Source of the DNA: Cupriavidus sp. D39
GTDB taxonomy: Bacteria > Pseudomonadota > Gammaproteobacteria > Burkholderiales > Burkholderiaceae
Reading direction: 5' to 3'
Assembly (NCBI RefSeq): GCF_026627925.1
Contig: NZ_JAPNLE010000007.1
Coordinates: 1-64,000, forward strand
DNA: 64,000 nucleotides
This document shows positions 11,059 to 57,857 of this stretch, in pieces. Within the stretch, counting starts at the first letter, position 1. Each line of letters starts with the position of its first letter. Position numbers and translations under genes: made by a program. The notes beneath the pieces were generated by a model. The model was not told where the DNA came from. It did no database searches and saw nothing but the letters and a program-made list of their open reading frames with translations.

Positions 11059-11099
11059 TTGACATACGTCAGACCCTTAACGGCGTCATCCGTTACACT
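11059..11099 (+). promoter_or_regulatory. FNR-dependent promoter of the USP gene at 11159
   Basis: FNR-type box TTGACATACGTCAG at 11059-11072, then a 21-base gap and a -10 TACACT at 11094-11099. This places the box centre about 41 bases before the expected transcription start, the class II activation position. Confidence 0.7.
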
Positions 11100-11158
11100 C
11101 AAAGCAATACAACGAGCCGGCGCCCTTCAATACGCTTGACCACCTCAGGAGACACGCC

Positions 11159-11614
11159 ATGTACCAGAGAATCCTCCTTGCCGTCGATGGCAGCCGCGCC
11201 TCGGAACTCGCCTTGAGGCAGGCGGCCATCATCGCCCACGCGACAGGCAGCGAGGTCGAAGCGCTATTTGTAGCCGACAACAGCGACGTCTTCTTCGGGC
11301 TCAGCTTTTACAACCCAGCGAAAGTGATGGAGGGCGTCCTCTCGTTCGGGCGCGAGGCGCTCGCGGGCGCCGCCGCGTGCCTGGAGTCCGCCGGCATCAA
11401 GAACACCACAGTACTCCTGGAAAGACCCTTGGCGCCTGGAAAGATCTCCGCCACCCTCGTCGCCGAGGCCGACGCCTGGAACGCCGACCTGATCGTAATG
11501 GGCACGCACGGCCGGCGCGGAGTCGGGCGGCTGGTCATGGGCAGCGTGGCGGAAGGAGTGGTACGCAAGACCAACAAGCCCGTGCTGCTGATTCGCAGCG
11601 AGAGCGAGGATTAA
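11159..11614 (+). CDS. Universal stress protein (UspA family)
   Basis: A 151-residue single-domain USP (MYQRILLAVDGSRASELALR). The ATP-binding signature is present: G-x2-G-x9-G-S type, seen in MGTHGRRGVGRLVMGSVAEG, followed by the C-terminal strand KPVLLIRS. Start ATG follows CAGGAGACACGCC. Cytosolic USPs of this class bind ATP and support survival under energy and oxygen limitation. An FNR promoter lies 60-100 bases upstream. It is closest in sequence to the USP at 52597-53052, and both follow an alcohol dehydrogenase gene or relic. Confidence 0.9.
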   Translation: MYQRILLAVDGSRASELALRQAAIIAHATGSEVEALFVADNSDVFFGLSFYNPAKVMEGVLSFGREALAGAAACLESAGIKNTTVLLERPLAPGKISATLVAEADAWNADLIVMGTHGRRGVGRLVMGSVAEGVVRKTNKPVLLIRSESED

Positions 11615-11654
11615 GCGGCTCGCATGCGAAGCGAATGAAACCGGACTCGATATC

Positions 11655-11909
11655 ATGAACCGCGCATTCAAATCGTTGTGCATCGTCAGCACCGCCTGGC
11701 TCGGTCTGTCGACACTTGACAGGCTAGCGCAGAGCAGCCCGTCCCAGTCCGGCAAGTCCTCCGCCCCTGCCGCCGTGCGCGGGGCCGACCTGCCAAGCAG
11801 CAACGAAAAGGCAGATTTCTGCGCCCGTATGCAGGCCGCCAGTACGCCAGAAGAATGCCGGGAGATCGCGCGGCGCATGCGCGATGTCATGCATACGTGC
11901 ATCCTCTAG
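11655..11909 (+). CDS. Small exported hypothetical protein
   Basis: An 84-residue frame 41 bases after the USP gene on the same strand. The N-terminus (MNRAFKSLCIVSTAWLGLST) could act as a signal peptide or signal anchor. The C-terminal part has two cysteines in FCARMQAASTPEECREIARR that could pair in the periplasm. No strong ribosome binding site. Likely co-transcribed with the USP gene under the FNR promoter. Family not recognised. Confidence 0.45.
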   Translation: MNRAFKSLCIVSTAWLGLSTLDRLAQSSPSQSGKSSAPAAVRGADLPSSNEKADFCARMQAASTPEECREIARRMRDVMHTCIL

Positions 11910-12060
11910 AATTTCCTCTCGCAGCATTGTTGCCTGCGCCGACGGCCAGAAAGGTGCATCGGCAACCATAACATCGGCTGGCAGGGGTAAGCGCGCGACA
12001 AGAAACTCACGGATACCATCTTCATTTGCAGGCGAGCTTGCGCAAACAACTCAGAGGGCT

Positions 12061-12729
12061 TTATCGCAGTAAGCTCGGGGTAGAATTCACCGGTGTCGAA
12101 CTCAACGCGTGCGGGCAACGGTCATGAACCCGGAGATTGCACTGGTAGGCATGGCGGACATCGGGATCCGGCCCGGCGGTGCGCAGGCACACCACCTCGT
12201 CGGCGCTGGCGCGGACCGCCGCCAGCCCTTGAGGGGTGCCCACGGGAACCGCGCAAACCAGCCTGGCAGGCTGCTGCCGGAGCACTGCGTGGATCGCCGC
12301 CATCATGGTGGCGCCAGTGCAGATTCCATCGTCTACCAGAATCACGATGCGGCCATGCGGGTCAAGCCGTGTGCGATGCGATGTGTAGATCGCGCATTGC
12401 TGCCGCAGCAGATCGAGCTTTGCCAGCCGCTCCTGGGCGAAATGCATAGGATCGGGCTGCCCGCCCACCGGGTTCTCCACGCGGTAGGTCCAGCCGTTCT
12501 CGGTCACGGCGCCGATCGTGGCGATGCCATTGGCCGGGCCGACCAGCTTGCTGACCAGTGCCACATCGAGTTGCCCCTCCAGCGCGTCGGCGAGTCCGCG
12601 ACCAACCGGTACGCCGCCCTTCGGAATAGCAAGGATCAAGGGATGCTGACCCCGATAATCGGAGAGCGCCTCGGCTAGCTGCGCCGCGGCCTCCTCCCGG
12701 CCTGCAAAGCGGGCAAGTGGCGGATTCAT
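12061..12729 (-). CDS. Phosphoribosyltransferase-domain protein, C-terminus possibly frameshifted
   Basis: The product (MNPPLARFAGREEAAAQLAE) has the PRTase fold: ILAIPKGGVPVGRGLADAL, DVALVSKLVGP, and the PRPP loop IVILVDDGICTGATMMAAIH. The start at 12729 is chosen because GGGAGG lies just before it. Such stand-alone PRTases recur in low-oxygen islands; their substrate is unknown. The C-terminal tail looks off-family, and an alternative frame (RVEFDTGEFYPELTAIKPSE) could be the true end, implying a shift near 12115. A second, truncated PRTase lies at 43973-44094. Confidence 0.75.
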   Translation of the reverse strand: MNPPLARFAGREEAAAQLAEALSDYRGQHPLILAIPKGGVPVGRGLADALEGQLDVALVSKLVGPANGIATIGAVTENGWTYRVENPVGGQPDPMHFAQERLAKLDLLRQQCAIYTSHRTRLDPHGRIVILVDDGICTGATMMAAIHAVLRQQPARLVCAVPVGTPQGLAAVRASADEVVCLRTAGPDPDVRHAYQCNLRVHDRCPHALSSTPVNSTPSLLR

Positions 12730-12791
12730 CGATTTGCCTCCCATTCTTCGTGCGCCGGCTGCGCGCTGCGAGCTAGTTCCGGCTTGCGCCC

Positions 12792-12832
12792 AGAATAAGC
12801 CGTTGGCGAAGCCAGTCCTTGTGCTATGTCAA
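12792..12832 (-). promoter_or_regulatory. Probable FNR-dependent promoter of the phosphoribosyltransferase gene
   Basis: On the minus strand TTGACATAGCACAA (12832-12819), a 21-base gap, then -10 TATTCT (12797-12792). The second half-site is weak, but the spacing is the same as at the other boxes in the island. Confidence 0.5.
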
Positions 12833-12862
12833 GGGTTGGGCCACGGATCCCTGGATAGCGCC

Positions 12863-15572
12863 TCAGTCGATCGCAAACCGCCGGATCAGCCATCCTCGCA
12901 GCGCATAGGTCAGGCAGCAATAGCCGAGGATGATCGGCGGCAGGAATAGCCAGAGCGTGCCCGGCGGAGACAACAGGCCCAGCGGCGCCGCCAGCGGCGA
13001 GTACGGCAGCCAGATGCCGATCAGGCAAATCGCCAATGTGGTGGCAATCAGCGTGGTGCTGCCACGACTTTGCACAAAGGGAATGTTCCGAGTGCGAATC
13101 ACATGAACGATCAGGGTCTGCGACAGCAGCGATTCCAGGAACCAGCCGGTCTGGAACAGGTGCTGCTGCGCGGGCGTGCTGGCGCCCAGTACCCAGTAGA
13201 GCGTCGCAAAGGTGATGTAGTCGAACAGCGAGCTGATCGGGCCGATGCACAGGATATAGCGGCCGAGCTTGCCGATCTCCCAGCGGCGCGGGCGGCTGAC
13301 GGCATCGTCGTCCACGTTGTCGGTAGGCAGCGCAGTCTGCGAAAAATCGTAGAGCAGGTTGTTGGTCAGCACCTGGATCGGCGCCATCGGCAGGAACGGC
13401 AGCCAGGCACTCGCGCCGAGCACGCTGAACATATTGCCGAAGTTGGAGCTCGCACCCATGCGCAGGTACTTGAGCAGGTTGGCAAAGACCTTGCGACCTT
13501 CGATCACGCCGTCATGCAGCACCAGCAGGCTCTTTTCCAGCAGGATGATGCTGGCGGACTCCTTGGCGATATCGGCGCCGCTGTCCACCGAGATGCCCAC
13601 GTCGGCCGCCTTTAGCGCGGGCCCGTCGTTGATGCCATCGCCCAGTACGCCCACCACCCGTCCGCGTGCCCGCAGGGCCTTGACGATGGCCGCCTTGTGC
13701 GCCGGCGCCAGCTTGGTGAACAGCTGCGTGCGCTCCGCGAGTTCCCCAGCTCTTGCGGCGAGAGCCCGTCGAGTTCCGCGCCGAGTACGGCCCGATCCAC
13801 GTCAAGGCCGACTTCCCGGCATATCTTGCGCGCGATCACCGGGCTGTCGCCGGTCAGTACCTTGACCTCGATGCCGCTGTCGCGCAGCGCGGCCAGCGCC
13901 GGTGCCGCGCTATCCTTGGGCGGGTCGATGAACGCGATATAGCCAAGCAGGATCAGCGCGGATTCGTCCGCCACCGAGTACGGTTGCATGTCCGGCGCCG
14001 GCGGCAAAGCTTGTAGGCGATCGCGATCACCCTGAAGCCATCTTCGTTGAGTGCATTGCAGACCGTCATCAGCGAGTGGCGATGCGAGTCATCAAGCGCC
14101 ATGGCCTGCCCGCCGAGTTCGGCGCTGGCGCATGTGGCATAGACTTCCTCCACCGCACCCTTGCAGACCAGGAGCCTGCCCTGCGGCCCGTCCACCACAA
14201 CCGACATGCGGCGCCGCTCAAAATCGAACGGCACTTCGTCGATCTTGCGGTAGCCGCCCTCCTGCCGCAGCGTTTCACCCACCTCGTCATGCAGCAGCAC
14301 CGCCTTGTCCAGCAGGTTGTGTAAGCCGGACTGGTGGTAGCTGTTCAGGTAGGCGAATTCCAGCACGCGCGCGGTCTCCTGCCCCGCCAAGTCCACATGC
14401 TTCTTCAGGATGATGCGGTCCTGCGTCAGGGTGCCGGTCTTGTCGGTACACAGCACATCCATGGCGCCCAGGTTCTGGATGGCGCTGAGGTGTTTCACGA
14501 TCACCTTGCGGCGCGACATGGCAAGCGCGCCTTTTGCCAGGTTCACCGTCACCAGCATCGGCAGCATCTCGGGCGTCAGCCCCACGGCGACTGCCACCGC
14601 GAACAGCAGCGCCTCCAGCCAGTCGCCCTTGGTCAGCCCGTTGATCAGGAACACCAGCGGCGCAAGGATCACGATCAGGCCGATCATCAGGCGTGCGAAA
14701 CGCTGCAGGCCTTGCTCGAACACGGTGCCGGACGTTTCCTCGGACAACGAGCGGGCGATGCTGCCGAACACGGCGCGCGGCCCGGTCAGCACCACCACGA
14801 TGGTAGCGCTTCCGCTGACCACGGCCGTGCCCATCAGCACGATGTTCTCCAGCGTGCCGGGTCCGTCGCCGCTGGCGCTCTCCAGCGCGAACTTTTCCAC
14901 GGGCAGCGATTCTCCGGTGAGGGCCGATTGGTTGACGAACAGGTCCTTGGAAGCCAGCAGCCGGGCATCGGCGGGAACGAGGTCGCCTGCCGACAGGTGA
15001 ACGATGTCGCCCGGCACCAGTGCGCCGATCGGCAGTTCGCTGGTGATGGGCACTGCCCCTGGCTCCGACCGGCGCTGCGTGGCGGCGGTGGTATGCACCA
15101 TGGCGCGCAGCGCCGCAGCAGCACGTCCGGAGCGCCGCTCCTGCACCGTGGCCAGGCCAACGCTGAGCATCACCATCACGGCGATCACCGCGGCGGCGTC
15201 GTAGTCGTGGATGGCTGAGGATACCGCTGCCAGGGTCAGCAGCATCACATTGAGCGGATTGAGCAAACGGCGCAGCAGGTCGAGCACCGCCGGGCGCGGA
15301 CGCTCATGTTCCACCAGGTTCGGGCCTACGTTTTGCAGGCGCGCGATGGCCTCGGCGCTTGTCAGCCCCTCCGGGCTGGTATCCAGTTGCTGGAGCAGGG
15401 TCGCGGGCGGCATGCCGGCGGCCCGCAGCAGGGCGTCCGGCACGCCGCCGGACGAAGCCGGCTTCTGCCTGGCAGTCGGCGCGGTATCTGCCGCGCCTTG
15501 CGTCGATGCGGGAGGCTGGCGTCGTAGCCGGCCCACCGTCTCGCCCAGGTACTGGATCGCCCGGCCAATCAT
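12863..15572 (-). pseudogene. mgtA: MgtA-like P3B-type cation ATPase, two frameshifts
   Basis: Read across frames, this is a full magnesium-transport P-type ATPase of about 900 residues. Motifs: LTGESLPVEK (actuator), PEMLPMLVTVNLAKGAL in the membrane, the phosphorylation site LCTDKTGTLTQD, and the hinge VVGVLGDGINDGPALKAADV. The six C-terminal membrane segments are intact. The frame breaks near 14010 (AIAYK to ALPPAPDM) and at 13744-13747, where one C is missing from a C-run. Both may be sequence errors. The start at 15572 overlaps the stop of the outer-membrane channel gene by ATGA, so the ATPase is coupled to the exporter operon, an unusual arrangement. Confidence 0.8.
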
Positions 15573-18826: not shown

Positions 18827-18828
18827 GC

Positions 18829-20649: not shown

Positions 20650-20764
20650 AGTCTAGTGTCGGGCGCACGGCGGCCGTTGATGCAGATCAATCGCACCTGC
20701 GGCGCGGAGCGTCCGCCCCGGACTTGATGCCGATCAACTGGCGCGCCGGAGCCCTGCCTATAGT
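20650..20764. promoter_or_regulatory. Divergent FNR-dependent promoter pair
   Basis: Two perfect boxes 47 bp apart: TTGATGCAGATCAA (20677-20690) and TTGATGCCGATCAA (20724-20737). Leftward, -10 TAGACT (20655-20650) lies 21 bases from box 1 and serves the CBS/exporter operon. Rightward, -10 TATAGT (20759-20764) lies 21 bases from box 2 and serves the DUF883/P1B-5 ATPase genes. Confidence 0.85.
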
Positions 20765-24198: not shown

Positions 24199-24239
24199 TT
24201 GCCGTAGATCAAAGCCACCGGCAGCCATCTGGCTATATT
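24199..24239 (+). promoter_or_regulatory. FNR-dependent promoter of the DUF2892 gene
   Basis: Box TTGCCGTAGATCAA (24199-24212; weak first half), a 21-base gap, then -10 TATATT (24234-24239). The gene starts at 24321. Confidence 0.6.
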
Positions 24240-24597: not shown

Positions 24598-24637
24598 TCG
24601 ATGCGGATCAACGAGCGCGGCCGCCACGCTTCAGAAT
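24598..24637 (+). promoter_or_regulatory. Probable FNR-dependent promoter of the phasin-phaB-phaC operon
   Basis: Box TCGATGCGGATCAA (24598-24611, one mismatch) followed after 20 bases by a weak -10 CAGAAT (24632-24637). The expected transcript starts about 130 bases before the phasin ATG. Confidence 0.5.
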
Positions 24638-29398: not shown

Positions 29399-29440
29399 AT
29401 TATTGGGTTAGCCCCCCTGCCGGCACTTGACGCACATCAA
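29399..29440 (-). promoter_or_regulatory. FNR-dependent promoter of the DUF3300 gene
   Basis: Minus strand: TTGATGTGCGTCAA (29440-29427), a 22-base gap, then AATAAT (29404-29399) as -10. The gene it serves has decayed. Confidence 0.6.
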
Positions 29441-31579: not shown

Positions 31580-31620
31580 AGGTTAGATCCGCATCGACAC
31601 GCCGATGTGATCTGCGTCAA
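31580..31620 (-). promoter_or_regulatory. Possible FNR-dependent promoter upstream of the USP gene at 31444
   Basis: Minus strand TTGACGCAGATCAC (31620-31607), a 21-base gap, then TAACCT (31585-31580) as a weak -10. A short membrane-protein-like frame (TFIEEAVGLVTALSLGGVVF) lies between it and the USP gene but lacks a clear start. Confidence 0.4.
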
Positions 31621-34101: not shown

Positions 34102-34142
34102 AGTATAGAGGGCGCGACGCGTAACCCTATGATCTGCATCAA
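34102..34142 (-). promoter_or_regulatory. FNR-dependent promoter of the hemerythrin gene
   Basis: Minus strand TTGATGCAGATCAT (34142-34129), 21-base gap, -10 TATACT (34107-34102). The start codon is about 45 bases after the expected transcription start. Confidence 0.8.
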
Positions 34143-36565: not shown

Positions 36566-37093
36566 TCAGATCGAGTGCTGGCCCATCTGCCGGTCCGTGA
36601 CCCCCGTTACGCCGAACCGGCGCACGTGCGCCTCATGGGCCACGCGAAAACGCACCGGAATCAGGTCCGCCAGAGGGCAGCCGATCATGTCCGCGGCGGC
36701 GTAGCCAAAAAGACGCTCCGCCGTGGGGTTGAACAACACGATGCGCTGCCCTTCGTCCACCGTGATGATCGCTTCCATTGACGAGCGGATGATCCCTGCC
36801 AGCCGGGCTTCGCTGCCCTGGGTACGCGCCAGGTTCTCTTCTGCGTCACGCCGCAGCCGCCGCAAGCGCACCAGCAGCAGGGACAGCATCACGGCCACGG
36901 CCAGTCCCCAGGCGCCTAGCATCGGCGCGGCCAAGCCGCCAGGCCGGGGGCAAGCGCGGTGATGAACCACAGTGCCAGCAGCATCAGCAGCACGAGCACG
37001 GCGCCGCCCGCCGCCAGTTCGCCAAGCGTGGTATGAAACGATGTCTTCGGCGCAGAAGGCAGATTCGGTGAAGGAGGCTCTTTGGTCGCCATG
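36566..37093 (-). pseudogene. N-terminal part of a PAS sensor kinase gene, decayed
   Basis: Starts MATKEPPSPNLPSAPKTSFH at 37093, with a membrane helix (GAVLVLLMLLALWFITALAP). After a shift near 36940 there is a second helix (GAWGLAVAVMLSLLLVRLRR), a short coiled coil and a PAS domain (IIRSSMEAIITVDEGQRIVL, FNPTAERLFGYAAADMIGCP). The frame stops after HVRRFGVTGVTDRQMG, where family members go on to a histidine kinase. The kinase part is absent. Confidence 0.65.
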
Positions 37094-37241
37094 GCAGGTC
37101 ACGGAGTGCTTCTGGATGCTCAGCAAGTCCTGCGGGGGACCGCCGGAGGCTCTGCCGTAAAGGTAGCCGATTTGCGCGAAATGCACACGCTAATTGTGAT
37201 GTGCTCATAATTTGGCGAGGAGGGAGCGGCTGGCGCCATCA

Positions 37242-37282
37242 GTCGGATAGCCGACGGCCCTTGTCAGGCTTTCCTGACAAGG
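37242..37282. promoter_or_regulatory. Two adjacent inverted repeats upstream of the pseudo-receiver gene
   Basis: GTCGG-ATAG-CCGAC at 37242-37255 and CCTTGTCAGG-CTTT-CCTGACAAGG at 37259-37282, the second with perfect 10-bp arms. They end 74 bases before the gene at 37357. They may be regulator sites or leader hairpins. Confidence 0.45.
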
Positions 37283-37356
37283 AGGTTCTCTTTCCGGACG
37301 ACACTCTCAGCCGCCCCTTCTTTCGAGAGGCCCCGCCATTCACCATACTCGGAAGC

Positions 37357-37788
37357 ATGAACCACCCGGCCCGCCCCGAACCCCTGACCGTACTGCTGCT
37401 CGAGGACTCTACCCTGATCGGGGCGCGGCAGACAAGGATGCTGAGATCGATCAAAGAGCTGGAACTGCTCGCCTTGGCCCGGGATCCGCGCGCGGCCCTG
37501 CTGGCAGCACAGATCCTCCTGCCCGATGTCGTCATTCTCAGCCTGAACCGGAATGAAAAATCCTGGCTGAACGTGCTGCAGGACCTGAAGCGGATGCGTC
37601 GCCACGCAACAGTGGTAGTGCTGAGCAACTGCTCGGTGCCGCCGATGCGCAGTGCCTACCTGCAGGCCGGTGCGTCGCTCTTTTTCGACAAGACCACGGA
37701 GTTCGACGCGTTGCGCCGCGCCCTGCTCCGCCTGGCTGCGGACAAGAGCGCGGCGACGGGTACGGTCCAGGAGTTCACAACAGCATAG
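37357..37788 (+). CDS. Response-regulator-like receiver protein lacking the phospho-acceptor
   Basis: A 143-residue single receiver domain: LTVLLLEDSTLIGARQTRML with the acidic pair, DVVILSLNRNEKSWLNVLQD, TVVVLSNCSVPPMRSAYLQA and ASLFFDKTTEFDALRRALLR with the conserved Lys. The Asp that normally follows VIL is Ser here, so it should not be phosphorylated in the usual way. The start at 37357 (MNHPARPEPLTVLLLED) is chosen because upstream codons are unrelated. It directly precedes the FNR-like regulator, about 100 bases apart on the same strand, and may modulate it. Confidence 0.75.
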   Translation: MNHPARPEPLTVLLLEDSTLIGARQTRMLRSIKELELLALARDPRAALLAAQILLPDVVILSLNRNEKSWLNVLQDLKRMRRHATVVVLSNCSVPPMRSAYLQAGASLFFDKTTEFDALRRALLRLAADKSAATGTVQEFTTA

Positions 37789-37889: not shown

Positions 37890-38689
37890 ATGTCAGAGTA
37901 TCTGCAGCGGGCAACACCGGCAGCAATGCCTTTCGCCCCCTCGGTGCCGAAGTCCTTGAGCCTCTGTCCATGTACAGGGACACCGCCCCGCCTGCAAGTG
38001 TGCCCCGCAAGGCAAATTGCTCAAGCTGCGCAATGCGCGCCATCTGCATGGGTGGCAACCTGAACGACGCGGATCGCACCAGGCTGGATAGCGTGATCCA
38101 TAACTGGCGCATGGTGCGGCGCGGCGAAGCGCTCTATCGTGCCGGCGACGCGTTCCAGAGCATCTATGCCCTGCGTTCCGGATCGTTCAAGACGGTGGTG
38201 TCCCACCAGAACGGATGCGAGCAGACGACCGGCTTCTTCGTCACCGGCGAGACGCTCGGGCTCGACGGCATCTGCACCGAGCGGCACGCCTGTGACGCCA
38301 TCGCCCTGGAAGACAGCGCGGTATGCGTGATTCCCTTCCATCTGCTCGAAGCACTCTGCCGGGAAATGCGTTCGCTGCAACAGCATGTGCACCGGATGCT
38401 AAGTAGCGAAATCGTGCGCGAATCAGGCGTCATGCTCCTGCTCGCCAGCCTGTCCGCGGAGCAGCGCGTGGCGGCATTCCTGCTCAATATCTCGGCCCGC
38501 CAGCAGGCGCGCGGCTACTCCCGCCGCGAACTCACGCTGCGCATGACGCGCGAAGAGATCGGCAGCTACCTGGGCATGAAGCTCGAGACCGTCAGCCGCA
38601 CCTTGTCGCGCTTCCAGCGTGACGGCCTCATCGATGTCAAGGGAAAACGCGTGACCCTGATGGATCTTGACGCGCTGGACCGGATCTAG
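37890..38689 (+). pseudogene. fnr: FNR-type oxygen-responsive regulator (frameshift near the 5' end)
   Basis: A CRP/FNR family regulator. Cluster cysteines are NCSSCAMRAICMGG plus the later Cys in LEDSAVCVIPF, matching the four [4Fe-4S] ligands of E. coli FNR. Next come the cyclic-nucleotide-fold core (GEALYRAGDAFQSIYALRSG), the dimer helix and the DNA-recognition helix LGMKLETVSRTLSRFQRDGL with E..SR for TTGAT. The likely start MSEYLQRATPAAMPFAP at 37890 has an AAAGGAAGC site. It joins the main frame if one C is added to the C5 run 37936-37940. Otherwise an ATG at 37970 gives 239 residues. It is the obvious activator of the FNR boxes in this island. Confidence 0.85.
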
Positions 38690-45503: not shown

Positions 45504-45571
45504 AATATAGGCGGGTGGCTGCCGGCCAACTTGATCCGCGTCAATCCAAATTCCGGCCACGTGCATAGCAT
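45504..45571. promoter_or_regulatory. Bidirectional FNR promoter built on one box
   Basis: One box, TTGATCCGCGTCAA (45531-45544). Rightward -10 TAGCAT (45566-45571) and leftward -10 TATATT (45509-45504) each lie exactly 21 bases from it. It would activate the gene at 45621 and the minus-strand operon. Confidence 0.75.
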
Positions 45572-45620: not shown

Positions 45621-47138
45621 ATGGAACCGGCGGTACTCACGCAAGCGTTGATGCGCCCCACGGCCTACCCACATCCCGTGGGCAAAGTCAGCCTCATCGA
45701 GACGCACATCTCGCAAGTGTTCCTGGCCGGCGCCTTCGCCTACAAAGTGCGCAAGCCGGTGCGCTTGGATTTTGTCGACCTCTCCACGCTGGCTGCGCGC
45801 AAAGCGGATTGCGAAGCCGAACTGGAATTGAATCGCAGGATGGCGGCGGCGCTCTACCTCGGCCTGGTACCGATCGTGGCGGGCCCTGGTCAGCGGGATG
45901 TCCGGGTAGGAGGCACTGGCGAAGCGCTGGAGTATGCGGTGAAGATGCACCGCTTCCGCCAGCGAGACCTGTTCTGCGCCATGGCAGAGTCGGAGCGGTT
46001 GACCGCATCGCATATCGAGACGCTGGCTCAGGGGCTTGCCGCGATCCATCTGGCTGCACCCATAGCCGGGGCCGGCAGCGGGCACGGCACGCCGGAGCGG
46101 ATCGCGGCGGTGGCGGAACAAGCCATCGCGCGCGTTGCCGAGCTCGCCTCGGCCACCGATGCAACGGCACACCTGGCGGCGCTGCTGCGCGAGCGCGCCG
46201 CTTCGCTGCACCCCGCCTTTGAAAAGCGGCGGGCGAGCGGGCATGTCAGGGAGTGCCATGGCGATTTGCATCTCGGTAATATCGCCTTGATCGACGGCGT
46301 GCCTACGCCTTTCGACTGCCTTGAATTCGATGCCGGGCTGCGCTGGATCGACACGATCAGCGATATCGCCTTTCTCTTCATGGACCTGTTGCACGCCGGC
46401 AGGCAAGACCTTGCCTATCGCCTGATCAATACCTACCTGGAGTGCAGCGGCGACTACGCCGGCCTGGCATTATTGCCGTTCTACACGGCCCTGCGCGCCG
46501 TGGTGCGCGCCCGCGTGCTGCTTGAGCGGGAGCACCAGCGCAACGTGGCGGGCACGAGCACCGCCGCGGAAATGGCAACGATGCAGATGCGCTGCGTCGA
46601 TTTGCTTGCGCTGGCCAGCGTCACCCTGACGCGGCCTCCGGGCGCGATCACCATCATGCATGGCCTCTCGGGCAGCGGCAAGAGCACCGTTGCCCAGCAG
46701 CTCGCGCTAGCCGCAGCCATGGTGCGCGTGCGCGCGGACGTTGAGCGCAAACGTCTTCCACACAGGCACGTCGCTGCACAAGGCGATCTTTACACGGCTG
46801 AACACACCGCCCGCGTCTATGGGCGACTACTGGCAATCTGCCGGCTTGGCAGTGCCGCTGGCTTCCCCATGATCGCCGACGCGACCTTCCTTGCACGCGA
46901 GCAGCGGCTGCGGTTTGCGTCGCTGGCCGCGCGCCGGGGCGTGGCGTTCTCCATCGTTGACTGCAATGCCGACCTGGCTACCCTGCGCGAACGCATCGCG
47001 GCGCGCGCGCGCCAGGGCGGGGACCCCTCCGATGCTGACCTTCAGGTGCTGGAGTGGCAGCGGCGCGTGCAGGAGCCGCTGGGCAGCGATGAATGGCGCC
47101 ATGTAGTGCGAATTGGCGACGCCAGATCAACCGGCTGA
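45621..47138 (+). CDS. Aminoglycoside-phosphotransferase-like / AAA kinase fusion protein
   Basis: A 505-residue two-domain cytosolic protein. Residues 1-330 are an APH-like kinase fold: AYKVRKPVRLDFVDLSTLAA (ATP Lys), RECHGDLHLGNIALIDGVPT (catalytic loop) and FDCLEFDAGLRWIDTISDIA (metal Asp). Residues 340-505 are a P-loop kinase-like domain with Walker A ITIMHGLSGSGKSTVAQQLA. Such bifunctional proteins are widespread in proteobacteria and of unknown substrate. The gene has its own FNR promoter from the shared box at 45531. Confidence 0.85.
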   Translation: MEPAVLTQALMRPTAYPHPVGKVSLIETHISQVFLAGAFAYKVRKPVRLDFVDLSTLAARKADCEAELELNRRMAAALYLGLVPIVAGPGQRDVRVGGTGEALEYAVKMHRFRQRDLFCAMAESERLTASHIETLAQGLAAIHLAAPIAGAGSGHGTPERIAAVAEQAIARVAELASATDATAHLAALLRERAASLHPAFEKRRASGHVRECHGDLHLGNIALIDGVPTPFDCLEFDAGLRWIDTISDIAFLFMDLLHAGRQDLAYRLINTYLECSGDYAGLALLPFYTALRAVVRARVLLEREHQRNVAGTSTAAEMATMQMRCVDLLALASVTLTRPPGAITIMHGLSGSGKSTVAQQLALAAAMVRVRADVERKRLPHRHVAAQGDLYTAEHTARVYGRLLAICRLGSAAGFPMIADATFLAREQRLRFASLAARRGVAFSIVDCNADLATLRERIAARARQGGDPSDADLQVLEWQRRVQEPLGSDEWRHVVRIGDARSTG

Positions 47139-47175
47139 TGCAGATCAAGCTGTGCCATCGATGCGGAACTAAGCT
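47135..47175 (+). promoter_or_regulatory. FNR-dependent promoter of the nitroreductase gene
   Basis: Box CTGATGCAGATCAA (47135-47148, one mismatch), a 21-base gap and -10 TAAGCT (47170-47175). The box overlaps the end of the upstream gene. Confidence 0.7.
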
Positions 47176-50683: not shown

Positions 50684-50724
50684 AGTCTAGGAAACGCCAG
50701 GATACGGCTATTGACTCAGGTCAA
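50684..50724 (-). promoter_or_regulatory. FNR-dependent promoter of the USP-BON-SYLF-flavodoxin operon
   Basis: Minus strand TTGACCTGAGTCAA (50724-50711), a 21-base gap, -10 TAGACT (50689-50684). The start codon is about 25 bases after the expected transcription start. Confidence 0.8.
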
Positions 50725-51304: not shown

Positions 51305-51427
51305 AGTGTGTATGCCCGGACGCGCTCGGTGTTGACGCGGATCATGGCATCCGCAACTTTATGGGGCGCCCGCCTGGCGCACGCCATTGACGCGAATCAA
51401 GCGGCGGCGGCGGGCGTCGCCTAGCAT
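51305..51427. promoter_or_regulatory. Divergent FNR promoters between USP and alcohol dehydrogenase genes
   Basis: Box TTGACGCGGATCAT (51332-51345) with a weak leftward -10 CACACT (51310-51305), and box TTGACGCGAATCAA (51387-51400) with a rightward -10 TAGCAT (51422-51427). Both gaps are 21 bases. Confidence 0.7.
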
Positions 51428-52495: not shown

Positions 52496-52536
52496 TTGAT
52501 GCAAGTCAATACGTCATCTGGCCCGCCCCCTATGCT
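52496..52536 (+). promoter_or_regulatory. FNR-dependent promoter of the USP gene at 52597
   Basis: Box TTGATGCAAGTCAA (52496-52509), a 21-base gap and -10 TATGCT (52531-52536). It lies just after the dehydrogenase stop codon. Confidence 0.8.
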
Positions 52537-52596
52537 GCAGATGACGGTGGCGCCCATGCGCGCGCGCCTACTTATATCCAGCCAGGAGGACGAACC

Positions 52597-53052
52597 ATGT
52601 ATCAGCGAATACTGCTCGCGGTGGACGGCAGTCACTCTTCCGACCTCGCCCTGAGCCAGGCCATCACCGTCGCCAAGGCCACCGGCAGCGAGGTCAAGGT
52701 GCTCTTCGTGGCGGACGACAGCGATGTCTTCTTCTCTGCTGGCAGCTACGATGCCAACAAGCTCATGGAGAGCATCCTGGCCGTGGGGCGCGATGCGCTG
52801 GCAGCCGCCGCCAAGCGCCTGTCGGAAGCGGGTATCCAGCATACGACGAAGATTCTCGAAAGGCCCGTTTCCCCCGGGCAGATATCCACCACCATCGCGG
52901 AAGAAGCCGATCGCTGGAGTGCGGATCTCATCGTGATTGGCACGCACGGCCGCCGCGGCTTCCGGCGCCTGATCATGGGCAGCGTTTCCGAAGGCGTGGT
53001 GCACAAGAGCAACAAGCCTGTGCTGATGGTCCGCAGCGAGATCCCGGAATGA
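52597..53052 (+). CDS. Universal stress protein (UspA family)
   Basis: A 151-residue USP (MYQRILLAVDGSHSSDLALS), close kin of the one at 11159-11614 (same length; shared SEVKVLFVADDSDVFFSAGS-like stretch and LIVIGTHGRRGFRRLIMGSV loop). The ATG follows CCAGGAGGACGAACC. Upstream in-frame codons belong to the dehydrogenase region and are not used. It heads a run with the L,D-transpeptidase and DUF882 genes. Confidence 0.92.
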   Translation: MYQRILLAVDGSHSSDLALSQAITVAKATGSEVKVLFVADDSDVFFSAGSYDANKLMESILAVGRDALAAAAKRLSEAGIQHTTKILERPVSPGQISTTIAEEADRWSADLIVIGTHGRRGFRRLIMGSVSEGVVHKSNKPVLMVRSEIPE

Positions 53053-53098
53053 GCGTAGAACGCGCACGACAGGCGTCGTGCTGGCGGCGCGCGGCTTG

Positions 53099-54708
53099 AT
53101 GCGAGGCGTCTCGCTGATCCGCCGCGCCGGCACGCCCAGAATTGTGGCAGGCTTGCTGGCCGCATGGGCCTTGAGTTGGCAAGCGGGAGCGCTGGCCGAG
53201 GACGCCGCGCTCTGGTTTTCGCAGGAGCGCCCCACTGCCGACGCGCGGCAGGCCGCGGATATCCTGGTCGCCGCCGCGGCCGACGGGCTGGAACCCCGCG
53301 ACTATGACGCCGACGGCCTGCATCGTGCGCTTGGCCAGGCCGCACAAGGGCCGCCACTGGCGCCGGAAGCCGTGGCGCGGCTTGACGGCGATCTGACCGC
53401 GGCAATGCTGCGCTATCTGTCCGACCTGCACGGCGGCCGCGTCGAGCCGCGTCAGATCCACGAGAATTTTGCCGCCGCACCGGATGGGCAGTTCGATCCT
53501 TCGGCCTACCTGCACGCAGCCGTCGCCAGGCACAACCTGCCCAAGGCCGTCCAGCAGGCCGCGCCGTCGTTTCCGCTGTATGGCACCCTGCGCGAGGCGC
53601 TCGCCCGTTACCGGGCGCTGGCAGGTGATCCGGCCTGGCAGGCACCGCTGCCGCCGCTACCGGGCAAGAAGCTGGCGCGCGGCCAGGCCTACGCTGGCGT
53701 GCCGGTGCTGACGCAGCGGCTGATCGCGCTGGGCGACCTGCCCACGGGCACGCCCGTCCCGGAGCGCTATGAAGGCGCGCTGGTGGAAGGTGTCAAGGCA
53801 TTCCAGGCCCGCCACGGGCTGGAGGCCGACGGCGCTATCGGCGCCGGCACACTAGCGCAGTTGAATGCCTCGCCCACCAGCCGCGTACGACAAATCGAAC
53901 TGACCCTGGAGCGCCTTCGCTGGACGCCCCTGCTGGAGGGCCCGCGCATGATCGTGGTCAACGTGCCGGAGTTCGTGCTGCGCGCCTATGAAGTCCACGA
54001 CGGCAACGTCCAGGTCAAGGTGGAGATGAAAGTCATCGTCGGCAAGGCGCTCGACACGCGGACACCGCTCTTCAAGGAGGACATGCGTTTCATCGAGTTC
54101 AGTCCGTACTGGAACGTGCCACCCTCTATTGCGCACGCGGAGACCGTGCCCAGGCTGCGGCGCGACCCCGGTTATTTCGAGCGGCAGGGCTTCGAATTCG
54201 TCGGTGCCGACGGCAAGGCGGTGACCACGCTGTCGGCGGCCAGCCTCGACGCCGTCCAACGCGGGCAAATGCGCATCCGGCAGCGCCCAGGGCCGATGAA
54301 TGCGCTTGGGGACATCAAGTTCATCTTCCCCAACAACGACAATATCTACCTGCATCACACGCCCGCACCCGGGCTGTTCACGCGGGACCGGCGCGACCTG
54401 AGCCACGGCTGCATCCGGGTCGAAGATCCGGTGGCTCTGGCCAGCTTTGTGCTGCAGGACACGCCCGGCTGGACCGAAGCGCGCATTCGCGAGGCCATGG
54501 GCAAAGGGCAGTCCAGCACGCTGCGGTTGCAGCAGCCGCTGCCGGTGGTGCTCGCGTACGGCACGGTCATCGTCAAGGCCGACGGGCGCGTGTATTTTTC
54601 TCCGATATCTATGGGCTCGACCGGGTGCTGGACGAGGCGCTGCGGCAACGCTCCGCCAGCCGGCGGACTTTCGCCTGGACGAAAACGCGCGCAAGATTGA
54701 GTCGTTGA
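53099..54708 (+). pseudogene. L,D-transpeptidase (YcbB/LdtD type), frameshift near the end
   Basis: An exported protein (signal peptide around GLLAAWALSWQAGALAEDAA). It has a helical YcbB-specific N-terminal domain, a peptidoglycan-binding domain (GVKAFQARHGLEADGAIGAG) and a YkuD domain with the catalytic Cys in LSHGCIRVEDPVALA and His in NIYLHHTPAPG. It makes 3-3 cross-links in peptidoglycan. The last 35 residues are lost by one missing T in the T5 run near 54595; restoring it gives RVYFFSDIYGLDRVLDEALR and a stop at 54708. A GTG at 53078 is an alternative start. Probably a sequence error. Confidence 0.85.
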
Positions 54709-54728
54709 GCCAACCGAGAGCGCGTCCG

Positions 54729-55298
54729 ATGACCAAACCGTCCAGCGACCCTCGTCGCCTGTTTCTGTGCAACACTGGAAAGCTGGCCCTGGCCGGCGCG
54801 CTGCTGCCGCTGTCGGCCCGCCCTGCCTTTGCGGCCCTGGCAACGTTGCCGGAAGCCCGCAGCCTCGCCTTCGACCATACCCACACCGGCGAGCGCATTG
54901 CCATCGTCTACGCCGTGGGCGAGCAGTTCGTGCCCGAGGCGCTGGCCGCGCTCAACCGGTTCCTGCGCGATCACTACTCCGGCGAAGTCGGGATGATCGA
55001 CCCGCAACTGTTCGCGCTGCTTTACCGCTTGAAGCAAACGCTGTCCTGCGAGTCACCCTTCCAGGTCATCTCCGGCTATCGCAGCCCGGCCACCAACGCG
55101 CACCTACGCAAGACGCGCGGCGGCGGTGTGGCCAGCCACAGCCTGCATATGGATGGCAAGGCCATCGATATCCGCCTGCCGGGCGTGTCGCTGGTGGACC
55201 TGCGCGATGCCGCCCTGTCGCTGCGCGGCGGCGGTGTGGGCTTCTATCCGCAAGAGCAGTTCGTGCATGCGGATACGGGACGCGTGCGGAATTGGTAA
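54729..55298 (+). CDS. DUF882 (YcbK/MepK-like) murein endopeptidase, probable Tat substrate
   Basis: A 189-residue protein. The N-terminus SDPRRLFLCNTGKLALAGAL has a twin-arginine motif and a hydrophobic stretch ending PLSARPAFA. The mature domain has the M15-like zinc residues: FQVISGYRSPATNAHLRKT, GGVASHSLHMDGKAIDIRLP and EQFVHADTG. YcbK/MepK of E. coli cuts 3-3 cross-links, which the transpeptidase just upstream would make, so the two form a matched wall-remodelling pair. Start 20 bases after the transpeptidase stop. Confidence 0.88.
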   Translation: MTKPSSDPRRLFLCNTGKLALAGALLPLSARPAFAALATLPEARSLAFDHTHTGERIAIVYAVGEQFVPEALAALNRFLRDHYSGEVGMIDPQLFALLYRLKQTLSCESPFQVISGYRSPATNAHLRKTRGGGVASHSLHMDGKAIDIRLPGVSLVDLRDAALSLRGGGVGFYPQEQFVHADTGRVRNW

Positions 55299-55299
55299 G

Positions 55300-55505
55300 T
55301 GGCAAGGTTCTGTCGCGTTCGCTTGCGCGCGCTCGGCCCGCCGCAGAGCGGCTTCCAATTTGGTCAGCAGGCGCCCCCGCTCTGCCTGCCCCTGCATGCG
55401 TGCCTGCTCCGCTGCTCTCCACTGCCGGCTGAAGGTCGCGCCGGGCTTCAGCCTCGCTCACCTGCAGCCGCGCCGCGGCTCGCCAGATCGACTGCACCGC
55501 ATCCG
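55300..55505 (-). pseudogene. Remnant of a KfrA-like DNA-binding protein gene
   Basis: Minus-strand frames read ADAVQSIWRAAARLQVSEAE then, in another frame, RGRLLTKLEAALRRAERAQA. They resemble the helical part of the relic at 630-990 (ANAVQSIWQA). No N-terminal domain is left. It lies between the DUF882 gene and a USP gene, converging on both. Confidence 0.35.
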
Positions 55506-55509
55506 CAGC

Positions 55510-55941
55510 TCACGCTTCCTGCGGTGCCCTAACAAGCATGACAGGCATCTTGCACTGGCGTACAAGCGCTTCGGCCACACTGCCCATCAGCAGCCGGGTC
55601 ACCCCGCGACGTCCATGGGTGCCGATCACGACGAGTTGAGCGTGGCTACCTTCCACGACTTGCCGGATCTGGTTGGCAACGTCACCGAGCGCCACGATGT
55701 CGTCGAACAGGACGACATGGCAGTGCAGGTTCTTGGCTTCGGCCTTCGCCTGTGCCACCGTCAGCAGTTCCTGCCCCCTCCTGACCAGGCCTGCCCGCAC
55801 CTCTGCCAATTCATATCCGCTGTCAATGACGTGAACAATCTCCAGCTCCGCGCCGCAGGCACCGGCAAGATCGATCGCCTCTTCCAGGGCCTGATCGCTG
55901 CAGTGGCTGCCGTCGATCGCCACCGAGATTTTCTTGTACAT
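55510..55941 (-). CDS. Universal stress protein (UspA family)
   Basis: A 143-residue USP (MYKKISVAIDGSHCSDQALE). ATP loop: LVVIGTHGRRGVTRLLMGSV, then MPVMLVRAPQ. The ATG follows AAGGAGATGGCGC. It belongs to the subgroup of 31001 and 50750 (LEIVHVIDSGYELAEVRAGL). No FNR box was found in the 90 bases upstream, where a decayed two-domain USP lies on the same strand. Confidence 0.9.
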   Translation of the reverse strand: MYKKISVAIDGSHCSDQALEEAIDLAGACGAELEIVHVIDSGYELAEVRAGLVRRGQELLTVAQAKAEAKNLHCHVVLFDDIVALGDVANQIRQVVEGSHAQLVVIGTHGRRGVTRLLMGSVAEALVRQCKMPVMLVRAPQEA

Positions 55942-56031
55942 GCGCCATCTCCTTCAGGATTGCTGCATTGTGTTCAGCCTGCGGCTAAGCGCCACGCCCC
56001 CCGAGGCCGCATCGCCCCATCTGCTGGCCAA

Positions 56032-56165
56032 TCAGTCCGACAACAGCACTGGTATGGTCATCGACTCCAGTAGCGGGCGCGTTACGCCGCCCAACACAAG
56101 TTCGCGCATCCGCCGGCGCCCGTAGGCACCCATTACATTACGATCTGGTCTGCGGCCCGGGTGAA
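56032..56165 (-). pseudogene. 3' remnant of a two-domain universal stress protein
   Basis: The last 40 or so residues of a USP second domain: VMGAYGRRRMRELVLGGVTR, then PLLESMTIPVLLSD and a stop. It is almost identical in pattern to the end of 49821-50651 (VMGAYGRGRLRELVLGGVTA). The rest of the gene is absent upstream of about 56165. Confidence 0.7.
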
Positions 56166-56490
56166 CTACCTCTGGCCGACATGATCGCCGCTTACTGTCG
56201 CAGACTCAAGGAGATACGCCTCGACACCAGGGCGCGCTTCCTGCGACTGGATGGTGTAATAGCCACATTCCGTGAGGGGCAGGCGCCGCGGCGAATCTGG
56301 TTTTCCGCATTCATCCTAGGTTGCGCGGATAACAGGTATCTTGATTTCCCTCAACAACAGGTTAGTCGCTCGCACATAGGGTCTTCCAGACGACATGCCA
56401 ATTGCAGTCAGGTTCGCTGAACCACATGCTTGGGCGCCTCGGGGCGAGGCATAAAATGATTACAGGGTGACCGCGTGGAGGAGGTTTGAC
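56166..56490. other. Stretch without a gene; possible FNR box
   Basis: Leader of the S-adenosylmethionine synthetase gene. TTGATTTCCCTCAA at 56341-56354 has one mismatch to an FNR box, but no good -10 follows at the usual distance. Otherwise nothing is recognised. Confidence 0.35.
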
Positions 56491-57672
56491 ATGCTGACCT
56501 CGGAGAAAATTGCGCTCAACGTTTCGAACGCACCATCACAGTGGGACGTGCGCACGGAGATGTGCGAGCACAAGGGTGTTGGTCATCCGGACAGCATTTG
56601 CGACGGGGCGGTCGAGGCTGGCGCCCGCGCCCTATGCCGGGCTTACCTCGAAGCGTACGGGGCAATCCAGCATTTCAATCTGGATAAGGCGCTACTGATC
56701 GGCGGCATAAGTGCGCCGAAATTCGGTGGCGGCGAACTGCTGCGTCCAATGCGATTGATAGTCTCCGGCCCGGTTACCGAACTGCCGTCGGCCAAGGCTG
56801 AGGCAGTCGTTGGACAGGCCATTCGCGAGTACTTGACAGCGAGCCTTGGCGAGATTGGCAATCAGATTAGCCTCGAGCCCATTCTGCGCCCCTCGGCGCC
56901 GAATCTCCGCCGGGTGACCGGCTCCTCCGTCCCACTGGCCAATGACACATCTTTTGGTGTCGGCTATGCACCCCACTCCAGCCTTGAAAGCTCGGTGCTG
57001 TCTGTCGCACACCTTCTCGACTCAAGTGGATTCAGGGACTCTTTCAAGGCGGCAGGCCACGACTACAAGGTCATGGGTAGTCGACTGGATGCGCATCACC
57101 GCCTCACCGTTGCCCTCGCGTTTGTCGACCAATATGTGCACGCCGTTGAGGAATACTTCGCGCTGAAGGATGAAGTCACGTCGCTTCTTGCCAGGCACAT
57201 CCGCCCTTTGTGTGAGATTGAAGTCAATACCCTGGACGACCTCAGTGTCCGTGACGAAAGCGGAATCTATCTGACCGTGACGGGCCTGAGCGCGGAGCAC
57301 GGTGACGACGGTGAAGTTGGTCGTGGGAACCGGGTCAATGGCCTGATTACACCCTATCGGCCAATGTCGCTTGAGGCTGCAGCGGGGAAGAACCCGGCTT
57401 CGCATGTCGGCAAGCTCTACAACGTGTTAGCCCATCGGCTGGCAGCATATATTGAGGCCAACGTGGATGGCGTGGATGTTGTCATCGTCCGACTTCTGTC
57501 ATCGATTGGTCGCCCAATCGACCAGCCGCAATTGGTCGCCATCGATGTGGCAGCGGCAGATGGGCTCTCGGCCGCGCGCCAACAGCAAATCCGTTACCTC
57601 GTCGGGCAGCAACTGGCGGCGCTTCCCGCCCTGGTAAAGGAACTGGTCAGCGGGACGGTCGCGGTGTTCTGA
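56491..57672 (+). CDS. Archaeal-type S-adenosylmethionine synthetase
   Basis: A 393-residue enzyme joining methionine and ATP. Motifs are those of the archaeal class and not of bacterial MetK: EMCEHKGVGHPDSICDGAVE, GHDYKVMGSRLDAHHRLTVA, EHGDDGEVGRGNRVNGLITP then PYRPMSLEAAAGKNPASHVG, and KLYNVLAHRLAAYIE. The start at 56491 (MLTSEKIALNVSNAPSQWDV) follows GGAGGAGG. GC content is lower than in the flanking USP genes, which fits horizontal acquisition. It would supplement the housekeeping MetK. Confidence 0.92.
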   Translation: MLTSEKIALNVSNAPSQWDVRTEMCEHKGVGHPDSICDGAVEAGARALCRAYLEAYGAIQHFNLDKALLIGGISAPKFGGGELLRPMRLIVSGPVTELPSAKAEAVVGQAIREYLTASLGEIGNQISLEPILRPSAPNLRRVTGSSVPLANDTSFGVGYAPHSSLESSVLSVAHLLDSSGFRDSFKAAGHDYKVMGSRLDAHHRLTVALAFVDQYVHAVEEYFALKDEVTSLLARHIRPLCEIEVNTLDDLSVRDESGIYLTVTGLSAEHGDDGEVGRGNRVNGLITPYRPMSLEAAAGKNPASHVGKLYNVLAHRLAAYIEANVDGVDVVIVRLLSSIGRPIDQPQLVAIDVAAADGLSAARQQQIRYLVGQQLAALPALVKELVSGTVAVF

Positions 57673-57816
57673 TTCCGCAATTGCTGGCCAAGTCTGCCCG
57701 CTCGGGGTGGCGGAAGTACCGGGCGGGCCACTTCAGCGTCTGCTACCTGTTCATGCACTGTTCTGCACTCTCCTCCCCTCACCCGCGACACTAGATCGCC
57801 GCGGCCGCGGCATTCC

Positions 57817-57857
57817 TTGATTGGCGTCAAGAGCAGAATCAGGTGGGAGCCGATACT
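57817..57857 (+). promoter_or_regulatory. FNR-dependent promoter of the YHS gene
   Basis: Box TTGATTGGCGTCAA (57817-57830), a 21-base gap and -10 GATACT (57852-57857). Confidence 0.75.

Follow-up and report, generated by a model that had tools for sequence, protein, structure and literature searches.

The 64,000-nucleotide stretch analysed here (the window) very probably carries an lxa-type low-oxygen persistence island, the transcription units of which have class II FNR promoters of their own and are switched on by FNR. Sequence analysis supports an FNR-type class II regulon that is concentrated in one island with its regulator encoded inside. The lxa kind of island is already known, and this one is a relative in a Cupriavidus-like bacterium. 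What is new is the spacing: the island promoters have 21 bases between the box and the -10 hexamer, against 22 at core FNR promoters in the same genus, a difference that may separate the two regulons.

The sequence shows many transcription units, each with its own predicted promoter composed of a 14-base box and a -10 hexamer 21 bases downstream. As oxygen falls, a [4Fe-4S] cluster would form and FNR would dimerise; the dimer would bind the boxes and recruit sigma-70 polymerase at each promoter, and the Usp, PHB, hemerythrin, exporter and dehydrogenase genes would switch on together.

FNR-type boxes at a fixed distance from -10 hexamers

All 16 FNR-type boxes named in the original prediction are present at the coordinates given for them. 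They are given below with the genes that they precede and the regulatory genes of the island (gap, number of bases between box and hexamer).

11059..11099, + strand: predicted promoter, box TTGACATACGTCAG, gap 21, TACACT; Usp gene 11159-11614
12792..12832, - strand: predicted promoter, box TTGACATAGCACAA, gap 21, TATTCT; phosphoribosyltransferase 12061-12744
20650..20690, - strand: predicted promoter, box TTGATCTGCATCAA, gap 21, TAGACT; CBS gene 20075-20596
20724..20764, + strand: predicted promoter, box TTGATGCCGATCAA, gap 21, TATAGT; DUF883 gene (about 20853-21188) and P-type ATPase/hemerythrin fusion (to 23496)
24199..24239, + strand: predicted promoter, box TTGCCGTAGATCAA, gap 21, TATATT; YgaP-like membrane protein (to 24524)
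24598..24637, + strand: box TCGATGCGGATCAA, CAGAAT at gap 20 (weak); phasin-phaB-phaC 24777-27905
29399..29440, - strand: box TTGATGTGCGTCAA, AATAAT at gap 22; DUF3300 gene 28780-29400
31580..31620, - strand: predicted promoter, box TTGACGCAGATCAC, gap 21, TAACCT; Usp gene 31001-31525
34102..34142, - strand: predicted promoter, box TTGATGCAGATCAT, gap 21, TATACT; hemerythrin gene within 33475-34185
36566..37188, - strand: sensor kinase remnant adjoining fnr, with just the PAS part, split across reading frames
37201..37788, + strand: response-regulator gene adjoining fnr, matched in genomes G023, G041 and G042
37952..38689, + strand: island FNR; the ORF is listed from 37652, the conserved part starts at about 37952
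45504..45571, two-sided: palindromic box 45531-45544, hexamers at gap 21 on both sides; + side, TAGCAT, APH/AAA kinase gene 45621-47138 (+); - side, TATATT, DksA-type gene 44748-45128 (-)
47135..47175, + strand: predicted promoter, box CTGATGCAGATCAA, gap 21, TAAGCT; nitroreductase 47243-47902
50684..50724, - strand: predicted promoter, box TTGACCTGAGTCAA, gap 21, TAGACT; double Usp gene 49821-50651
51305..51345, - strand: box ATGATCCGCGTCAA, gap 21, CACACT (weak); Usp gene 50750-51232
51387..51427, + strand: predicted promoter, box TTGACGCGAATCAA, gap 21, TAGCAT; zinc alcohol dehydrogenase 51470-52477
52496..52536, + strand: predicted promoter, box TTGATGCAAGTCAA, gap 21, TATGCT; Usp gene (about 52590-53052, inside ORF 52237-53052)
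57817..57857, + strand: box TTGATTGGCGTCAA, gap 21, GATACT (weak); YHS-domain gene to 58320

The window holds 43 boxes with at most two mismatches to TTGATN4ATCAA, 14 of the 16 listed boxes among them, compared with 10.99 +/- 3.23 in shuffled sequence (100 shuffles, largest count 21); the boxes at 11059 and 12819 are further from this pattern than the other 14. At 12 of the 16 boxes TANNNT follows after exactly 21 bases, giving 13 promoters since box 45531 has one per side, and in the same 32 box orientations the remaining gaps between 5 and 49 each appear once at most. With a looser hexamer the count at gap 21 rises to 14 of 16, including the weaker hexamers of boxes 51332 and 57817, while boxes 24598 and 29427 fit better at gaps 20 and 22, respectively. 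The predicted fixed 21-base geometry thus stands for most boxes, with two off gap 21 and two more having a weak hexamer. That the boxes are intergenic also needs qualifying: the final bases of the preceding gene extend into box 47135, and a mechanically called ORF, the true start of which must be further in, encloses box 34129. Two pairs of boxes are no more than 55 bases apart (20677/20724 and 51332/51387).

Class II FNR-dependent promoters are known for Escherichia coli FNR; Herbaspirillum seropedicae fnr1, with a box at -42 (PMC5934665), is another case. As in such promoters, the island boxes overlap the -35 region and keep a constant spacing to a -10 hexamer on the side of the gene. The -10 hexamer is usually taken to occupy -12 to -7, which puts the box centre at -40.5 for gap 21 and at -41.5 for gap 22; the centre originally proposed for the island boxes was near -41.5. 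These look-alike predicted oxygen switches of the island's scattered genes would lie one base nearer the transcription start than those serving ordinary oxygen-response genes of the cell.

Across the 7.74 Mb genome that was scanned, the exact composite of box, 21 bases and TANNNT occurs 11 times, seven of them in the island segment, which makes up 0.6% of the genome; allowing up to one mismatch, 14 of 20 fall there. An equal density of such sites elsewhere is ruled out (binomial P about 1e-13 for exact sites and 3e-27 with up to one mismatch, both post hoc). The pattern read backwards, used as a control, gave no exact composite in this genome. With up to two mismatches the control gave 54 and 59 sites against 111 and 101 real ones, indicating that about half of the two-mismatch sites are noise. 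The central letters of the box were rejected as a mark of function: YR stands at positions 7-8 in 14 of the 16 window boxes, yet in other loci there is no significant contrast between boxes with a hexamer (125/155) and those without (105/140; Fisher P 0.26).

The estimate of at least 25 genes in the island is reached, at about 25 or more, if adjacent genes on the same strand are co-transcribed. The promoter at 20650..20690 probably also serves the MacB-type exporter genes 16054-19968, that at 31580..31620 perhaps drives the ABC genes 29612-30922 that follow the Usp gene, and that at 52496..52536 perhaps the YkuD gene 53078-54700.

Boxes follow genes in related islands

Of 44 relatives of boxed genes, 30 keep a box and the other 14 show none; for relatives of unboxed genes the figure is five of 62, and for random positions 178 of 5400. 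Individual genes range from the Usp gene 11159-11614, with its box kept in 4/4 relatives, through the phasin gene (an exact gap-21 promoter in three of four, none in one) and the phosphoribosyltransferase (1/2), to the Usp gene 50750-51232, the box of which is absent in 3/3 relatives outside this genome. Gene order is shuffled among related islands, but the boxes stay with the individual genes; they follow the genes and not their order. Counterparts of the two-sided box 45531 are found in G023, G041 and G337, and a single palindromic box with divergent promoters, both at exactly 21, occurs in 34 of 398 family genomes.

This island is not alone in its fixed geometry. Loci around related FNR genes (80 loci, 582 box orientations) have TANNNT most often at gap 21 (133), with a lesser maximum at 22 (28), and the remaining gaps between 8 and 39 have zero to three apiece.

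Relationship to the lxa locus

The low-oxygen-activated (lxa) locus of Burkholderia cenocepacia spans BCAM0275a-BCAM0323 and likewise has gap-21 FNR boxes. The proposed similarity in content is borne out, with 18 of 50 window proteins matching the lxa stretch (FNR 60% identical, ADH 66%, PhbB 66%, PhaC 58%, nitroreductase 58%, ATPase 56%), so that the set of Usp, phbB, phaC, ADH, beta-CASP, ATPase and FNR genes is represented. That stretch runs Usp, double Usp, Usp, 399-aa ORF, double Usp, phbB, phaC, ADH, beta-CASP, an order that agrees with the lxa table in the available text of PMC6127331 and PMC4981469. The island contains six Usp genes, PHB genes, hemerythrin and an FNR with four cluster cysteines. 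Judging from the accessible portions of PMC6127331, PMC9733578 and PMC4981469, six Usp genes, PHB genes, zinc ADH, a metallo-beta-lactamase/beta-CASP protein and a cation ATPase are common to both, and the CRP-family gene BCAM0287 adjoins the response regulator gene BCAM0288, as in the island.

Gene order differs between the two, with only short common runs such as phaB-phaC, and we therefore call the island lxa-type and not the lxa locus. Unlike in lxa, the beta-CASP gene and the sensor kinase are truncated, and the kinase part of the latter was not found. MetK, YHS and PPK2, which close the segment, had no match in any compared island. A plasmid origin was rejected: coverage by the best plasmid record is 6% for 36500-56000 and 24% for 11000-29500, so this is not a known plasmid module in the collection searched. 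Among the literature matches listed, most represented by title and start of abstract, none reports the spacing or a Cupriavidus lxa island.

Two FNR proteins with the same recognition motif

The regulator predicted within the segment was confirmed as FNR-like, its four cluster cysteines (CSSCAMRAIC and DSAVC) aligning with FNR of the solved entries 5cvr/9qll; it narrowly passes the curated NCBIfam Fnr subfamily NF008365 (229.5 bits, cut-off 228). The fourth cysteine is conserved in 80/80 aligned FNR sequences and lies outside the selection filter (C..C....C plus ET.SR), which 78 of the 80 loci passed and which makes its own residues invariant by construction. The recognition helix reads ETVSR, and helices of the E..SR type read TTGAT half-sites. 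A second FNR elsewhere in the genome, adjoining ccoN (the core FNR), has the same motif and the same cysteines. In the FNR tree, island FNR groups with Cupriavidus FNRs L066-L070, and core FNR is a very long branch of unsure placement.

The description of the regulon as self-contained is not supported, given this second FNR and four exact gap-21 promoters elsewhere in the genome. All four of these stand ahead of a Usp, diheme cytochrome c, DUF883 or phasin gene, which is a point in favour of the main reading. Neither does a box precede island fnr in the window box list, nor FNR in 5/5 relatives, and autoregulation was rejected. The second FNR, the lack of a box before fnr and the truncated sensor kinase nearby are points against the main reading of an FNR-switched lxa-type island.

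Spacing distinguishes island and core promoters within the genus

Such boxes also stand upstream of ccoN and of a ccoI-like gene, there at gap 22, compared with gap 21 in the island. In 24 genomes of the window's genus, with 143 gap-21 and 146 gap-22 sites (promoters not independent across genomes), the ratio of gap 21 to gap 22 is 67:6 within 60 kb of island FNR and 0:55 within 60 kb of core FNR. The 14 genomes with an island-type FNR hold 130 of the gap-21 sites, the other ten 13. In genus g27 (taken as Burkholderia; 14 genomes) the ratio is 79:13, and its 37 FNR matches, 54-61% identical to island FNR, include none of the core type found adjoining ccoN in the island genome. Since in this genus gap 21 tracks island-type FNR and gap 22 the core type, we favour island FNR, not core FNR, as the probable activator.

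Spacing as a universal rule was rejected. Genus g41 has 113 gap-21 and 91 gap-22 sites (11 genomes), and Caballeronia and Trinickia have 33 and 20 near island-type FNR, thus mixing both gaps. Over 40 genomes we counted 203 gap-21, 223 gap-22 and 22 gap-20 sites (gap-20 control 1), eight of the last being one conserved sequence unlike an FNR promoter.

It is quite possible that the island is driven mainly by core FNR, or by both FNRs as homo- or heterodimers, with island fnr adding little and gap 21 reflecting ancestry and not a code. The ETVSR motif and cysteines common to both proteins fit this, as do the 28 gap-22 beside 37 gap-21 sites in five g41 genomes where all FNR matches are listed (53-62% identity) with no core type, and the 20 of 53 sites at gap 22 in Caballeronia and Trinickia. 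According to the available part of PMC5934665, Herbaspirillum seropedicae has three Fnr proteins with promoters in common, and heterodimers may form between two of them. Set against this are the absence of any of the genus's gap-21 sites near core FNR, their concentration near island FNR, and the predominance of gap 21 in g27. The more specific proposal, that the paralogues are kept to separate regulons by core FNR using gap 22 (-41.5) and island FNR gap 21 (-40.5), is tentative and on balance doubtful, its probability being lowered by g41, which mixes both gaps without a core-type FNR.

With nine CRP/FNR-family matches over the cut-off in the genome, the boxes could serve another member, for example a cluster-less NO sensor and not an oxygen sensor. 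This we consider improbable, as the same kind of box precedes ccoN and the ccoI-like gene at gap 22, the FNR encoded between the island boxes retains every cluster cysteine, and the related lxa locus is reported to be induced by low oxygen (available text of PMC6127331 and PMC4981469), though the latter also describes expression in air in B. contaminans. That the boxes are alike and that two pairs lie close together would suit chance from base composition or copies of one duplicated promoter, which nevertheless is scarcely credible: shuffles gave 11 boxes against 43, the reversed exact composite is absent from this genome, which has 11 real sites, and turns up six times in 40 genomes, where real sites number 203, gap-21 spacers in the 80 other FNR loci, where gap 21 is commoner than other gaps, form 68 clusters at 60% identity, and the downstream genes come from many families.

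Implications for oxygen control

Herbaspirillum seropedicae likewise has several cluster-bearing Fnr proteins with one box type, with Usp genes among their targets; its promoter groups are separated by box letters, whereas here they differ in box-to-hexamer distance, and no discussion of that spacing was found in the part of PMC5934665 available. A need for lxa in anoxic survival is reported for lxa itself in the available text of PMC6127331. Islands of this type are tied in print to anoxic persistence, in papers that do not settle which of several FNRs is in control. Because the units mostly have their own FNR promoter, such islands can be reshuffled without loss of control. The 21/22 split offers a direct, cheap test of target separation by FNR paralogues with the same DNA-recognition motif. 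If the spacing reading is true, single palindromic boxes with two divergent promoters would be a further use of the rule, and a whole island of separately promoted genes could travel, shuffle and escape the resident FNR.

FNR boxes and their spacing in the window

All sixteen FNR boxes (TTGATN4ATCAA-type sites) of the original prediction were confirmed in the window sequence, each at its predicted position. A -10-like hexamer had been placed exactly 21 bases from nearly every box; TANNNT stands at this gap at 12 of the 16, and of the remainder two have weaker hexamers, one fits a gap of 20 and one a gap of 22. Since box 45531 has a hexamer on either side, the 12 boxes give 13 promoters. At any other gap from 5 to 49, TANNNT occurs at most once among the 32 orientations of these boxes.

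The genome spans 7.74 Mb in 11 contigs and holds 30 copies of the perfect box TTGAYN4RTCAA, eight of them inside the window. The composite of box, 21-base gap and TANNNT is not equally dense elsewhere, with 7 of 11 exact copies, and 14 of 20 allowing one mismatch, lying in the window. Binomial P values for the 46.8 kb segment are approximately 1e-11 (perfect box), 1e-13 (exact composite) and 3e-27 (composite with up to one mismatch), all post hoc, since the segment was picked for its boxes. With up to two mismatches a reversed-pattern control reached about half of the real count, so stricter sites alone were used. In named Burkholderiaceae genomes, the surroundings of related FNR genes (80 loci) contain 582 unique box orientations. 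TANNNT stands at gap 21 in 133 of them and at gap 22 in 28, all other gaps between 8 and 39 having 0 to 3 apiece. These two peaks mark the fixed distance as the usual class II geometry, for which two values are allowed.

Gene content of the island

Window gene families were assigned with Pfam:

11159, Usp gene
31001, Usp gene
49821, double Usp gene
50750, Usp gene
within 52237-53052, Usp gene
55510, Usp gene
phosphoribosyltransferase gene
MacB-type exporter set
CBS gene; DUF883 gene
heavy-metal P-type ATPase fused to a hemerythrin domain
phasin gene (score below its curated cut-off)
phaB, phaC
DUF3300 gene; separate hemerythrin gene
response-regulator part; FNR gene
acyl-CoA synthetase-like protein; MgtC/DUF4010 protein
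APH/AAA kinase; nitroreductase; ADH; YkuD
YHS gene (score below its cut-off)
PPK2 gene

The predicted membership of at least 25 genes would stand, the boxes reaching about 25 to 30, if same-strand neighbours are co-transcribed, as we infer. Several genes are truncated or split between frames. The beta-CASP gene, retained to 35974, lacks its N-terminal half and is joined at 35144-37188 to a sensor kinase remnant, the PAS part alone, in two frames; in the relative G041 both ORFs are longer (456 and 486 codons), and a double-Usp match separates them. A DksA-type gene (44748-45488) occupies two frames in the window and a single 219-codon ORF (stop to stop) in G041, and a calcium-type P-type ATPase (12863-15992) is in several frames in both. 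The gene at 56467-57672 encodes a methionine adenosyltransferase (MetK) of the PRK04439 type, which is mainly archaeal; MetK and the adjoining YHS and PPK2 genes had no match in any compared island. At the contig start (3557-9448), just ahead of the island, lie two or more kinds of transposase-type gene.

Relation to the lxa locus

The predicted similarity to the low-oxygen-activated (lxa) locus of Burkholderia cenocepacia holds: 18 of 50 window proteins match within a 60 kb stretch of strain NCTC13227 (L176-L178) that includes locus L109. Identities are 60% for FNR, 66% for ADH and PhbB, 58% for PhaC and nitroreductase, 56% for the ATPase and 49% for the beta-CASP protein, and several Usp genes are also matched. 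A run of single Usp, double Usp, single Usp, 399-aa ORF, double Usp, PhbB, PhaC, ADH and beta-CASP corresponds in the published tables to BCAM0290-BCAM0300 (PMC6127331, PMC4981469). The stretch holds five exact gap-21 composites, and more with one mismatch. PMC4981469 places BCAM0287 in the CRP family, gives BCAM0049, BCAM0287 and BCAM1483 as the lxa regulators predicted by the original authors, and describes the locus as also expressed in air. An lxa island carrying a CRP/FNR-family gene of its own was therefore already known. Judged by sequence, the island is of the lxa type and belongs to a kind already known.

Boxes follow genes

The window was compared with nine stretches, six of them islands or island parts of relatives and three from its own genome beyond the window. 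Relatives of window genes (tblastn matches of 70 residues or more, with identity of 45% or higher) were scored for a box with up to two mismatches, or a perfect box with a looser hexamer, and a hexamer at 20-22. Such sites precede 30/44 relatives of boxed genes, 5/62 of unboxed genes and 178/5400 random positions. Gene order is strongly rearranged between the window and the compared islands, and the boxes go with genes rather than with gene order.

Where the window has boxes 20677 and 20724, genome G391 (L202, contig C327) has a single box, with flanks matching the window on both sides and both hexamers still at 21, as if the inter-box stretch had been lost and the boxes recombined. Single boxes shared by two divergent hexamers, both exactly 21 bases away, are present in 34/398 family genomes and 7/25 genera; the reversed-pattern control gave none among the matches listed for the 398. 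Neighbouring ORFs were compared with the window proteins at 30 of these sites: at 22, the window's own site among them, one or more show a resemblance, and at eight none does.

Two FNR regulators and two spacings

The predicted FNR-like regulator is present as ORF 37652-38689, whose four cluster cysteines match a solved FNR in an alignment over 222 residues; at 229.5 bits it clears the NCBI Fnr cut-off of 228 bits by a narrow margin. An ORF passing a filter on the first cysteines and ET.SR is present in 78/80 related loci, and the fourth cysteine, outside the filter, is C in 80/80 aligned sequences. A second FNR adjoining ccoN (core FNR; C9:1634474), 42% identical to the island FNR, has its own cluster cysteines and the same ETVSR motif, so the island's regulator is not fixed by sequence alone. 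With this second FNR and four exact gap-21 sites outside the island, the proposal of a self-contained regulon is not supported.

The 22 perfect off-island boxes have TANNNT at 21 in four cases and at 22 in six. Downstream of the four exact off-island gap-21 sites are genes for Usp, diheme cytochrome c, DUF883 and phasin. The genome's six gap-22 sites are upstream of a ccoN-type COX1 gene, genes for a CcoI-like metal ATPase, a radical SAM protein, a desaturase and a luciferase-like protein, and one ORF without family. A small second site at 222-223 kb of contig C9 (L185 7079-8546) holds phasin and DUF883 genes, both of them preceded by an FNR promoter with an exact gap-21 composite.

One reading, which we regard as unlikely, is that the one-base difference keeps two FNR regulons apart, gap 22 marking core FNR promoters and gap 21 island FNR promoters; the shift would change which FNR touches polymerase productively, and such a mechanism, if real, may hold in only some FNR lineages. 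The other, a somewhat doubtful possibility, is that the island is driven mainly by the core FNR or by both, gap 21 being no code. Among 24 same-genus genomes (own included), the 14 that have an FNR of the island type (identity of 56% or more) hold 130 gap-21 sites and the 10 without hold 13 (Mann-Whitney P 8e-5), those 13 counting against a spacing code; gap-22 sites vary little, with 4 to 9 in each genome (89 and 57; P 0.06). Against the second reading, with 60 kb as the limit, 67/143 gap-21 sites are near an island-type FNR and 0/143 near the core FNR, the gap-22 figures being 6/146 and 55/146. Within 20 kb, own genome excluded, 44/132 gap-21 and 5/140 gap-22 sites are near an island-type FNR, and 0/132 and 44/140 near the core FNR. 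These counts are not independent, since the same promoters recur across related genomes, and the gap-22 sites near the core FNR probably represent only a few gene families. Because island and fnr travel together, co-occurrence alone is no proof that the island FNR uses gap-21 promoters. A gap of 20 is seen in an element conserved in eight same-genus genomes, which starts with TTGATG.TAGTCAAG, finishes with GGTACAGTACCGATACAGT and is seemingly not an FNR promoter.

Genus g27, taken for Burkholderia from its promoter sequences, comprises 14 of 150 family genomes; its matches were counted by eye, with up to 18 candidates scored per genome. The 37 FNR matches among these candidates share 54-61% identity with the island type and include none of the core type, and gap-21 to gap-22 sites number 79:13. 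Genus g41 (11 genomes) is nearly even, at 113 to 91 (counted by hand); in the five of its genomes with all FNR matches listed, every match is island type (53-62%), yet 37 gap-21 and 28 gap-22 sites occur. Near the island-type FNR of Caballeronia and Trinickia the gaps are likewise mixed (33 and 20), and in the window's genus more than half of the gap-21 sites are either on other contigs than an island-type FNR or separated from it by over 60 kb. These contrary results, with the non-independence, lowered our estimate for a spacing code and slightly raised that for its rival, from a common starting point below even odds.

The reading of the region as an oxygen-controlled island is likely right, and the 21/22 spacing split is the part of the result that deserves bench testing.
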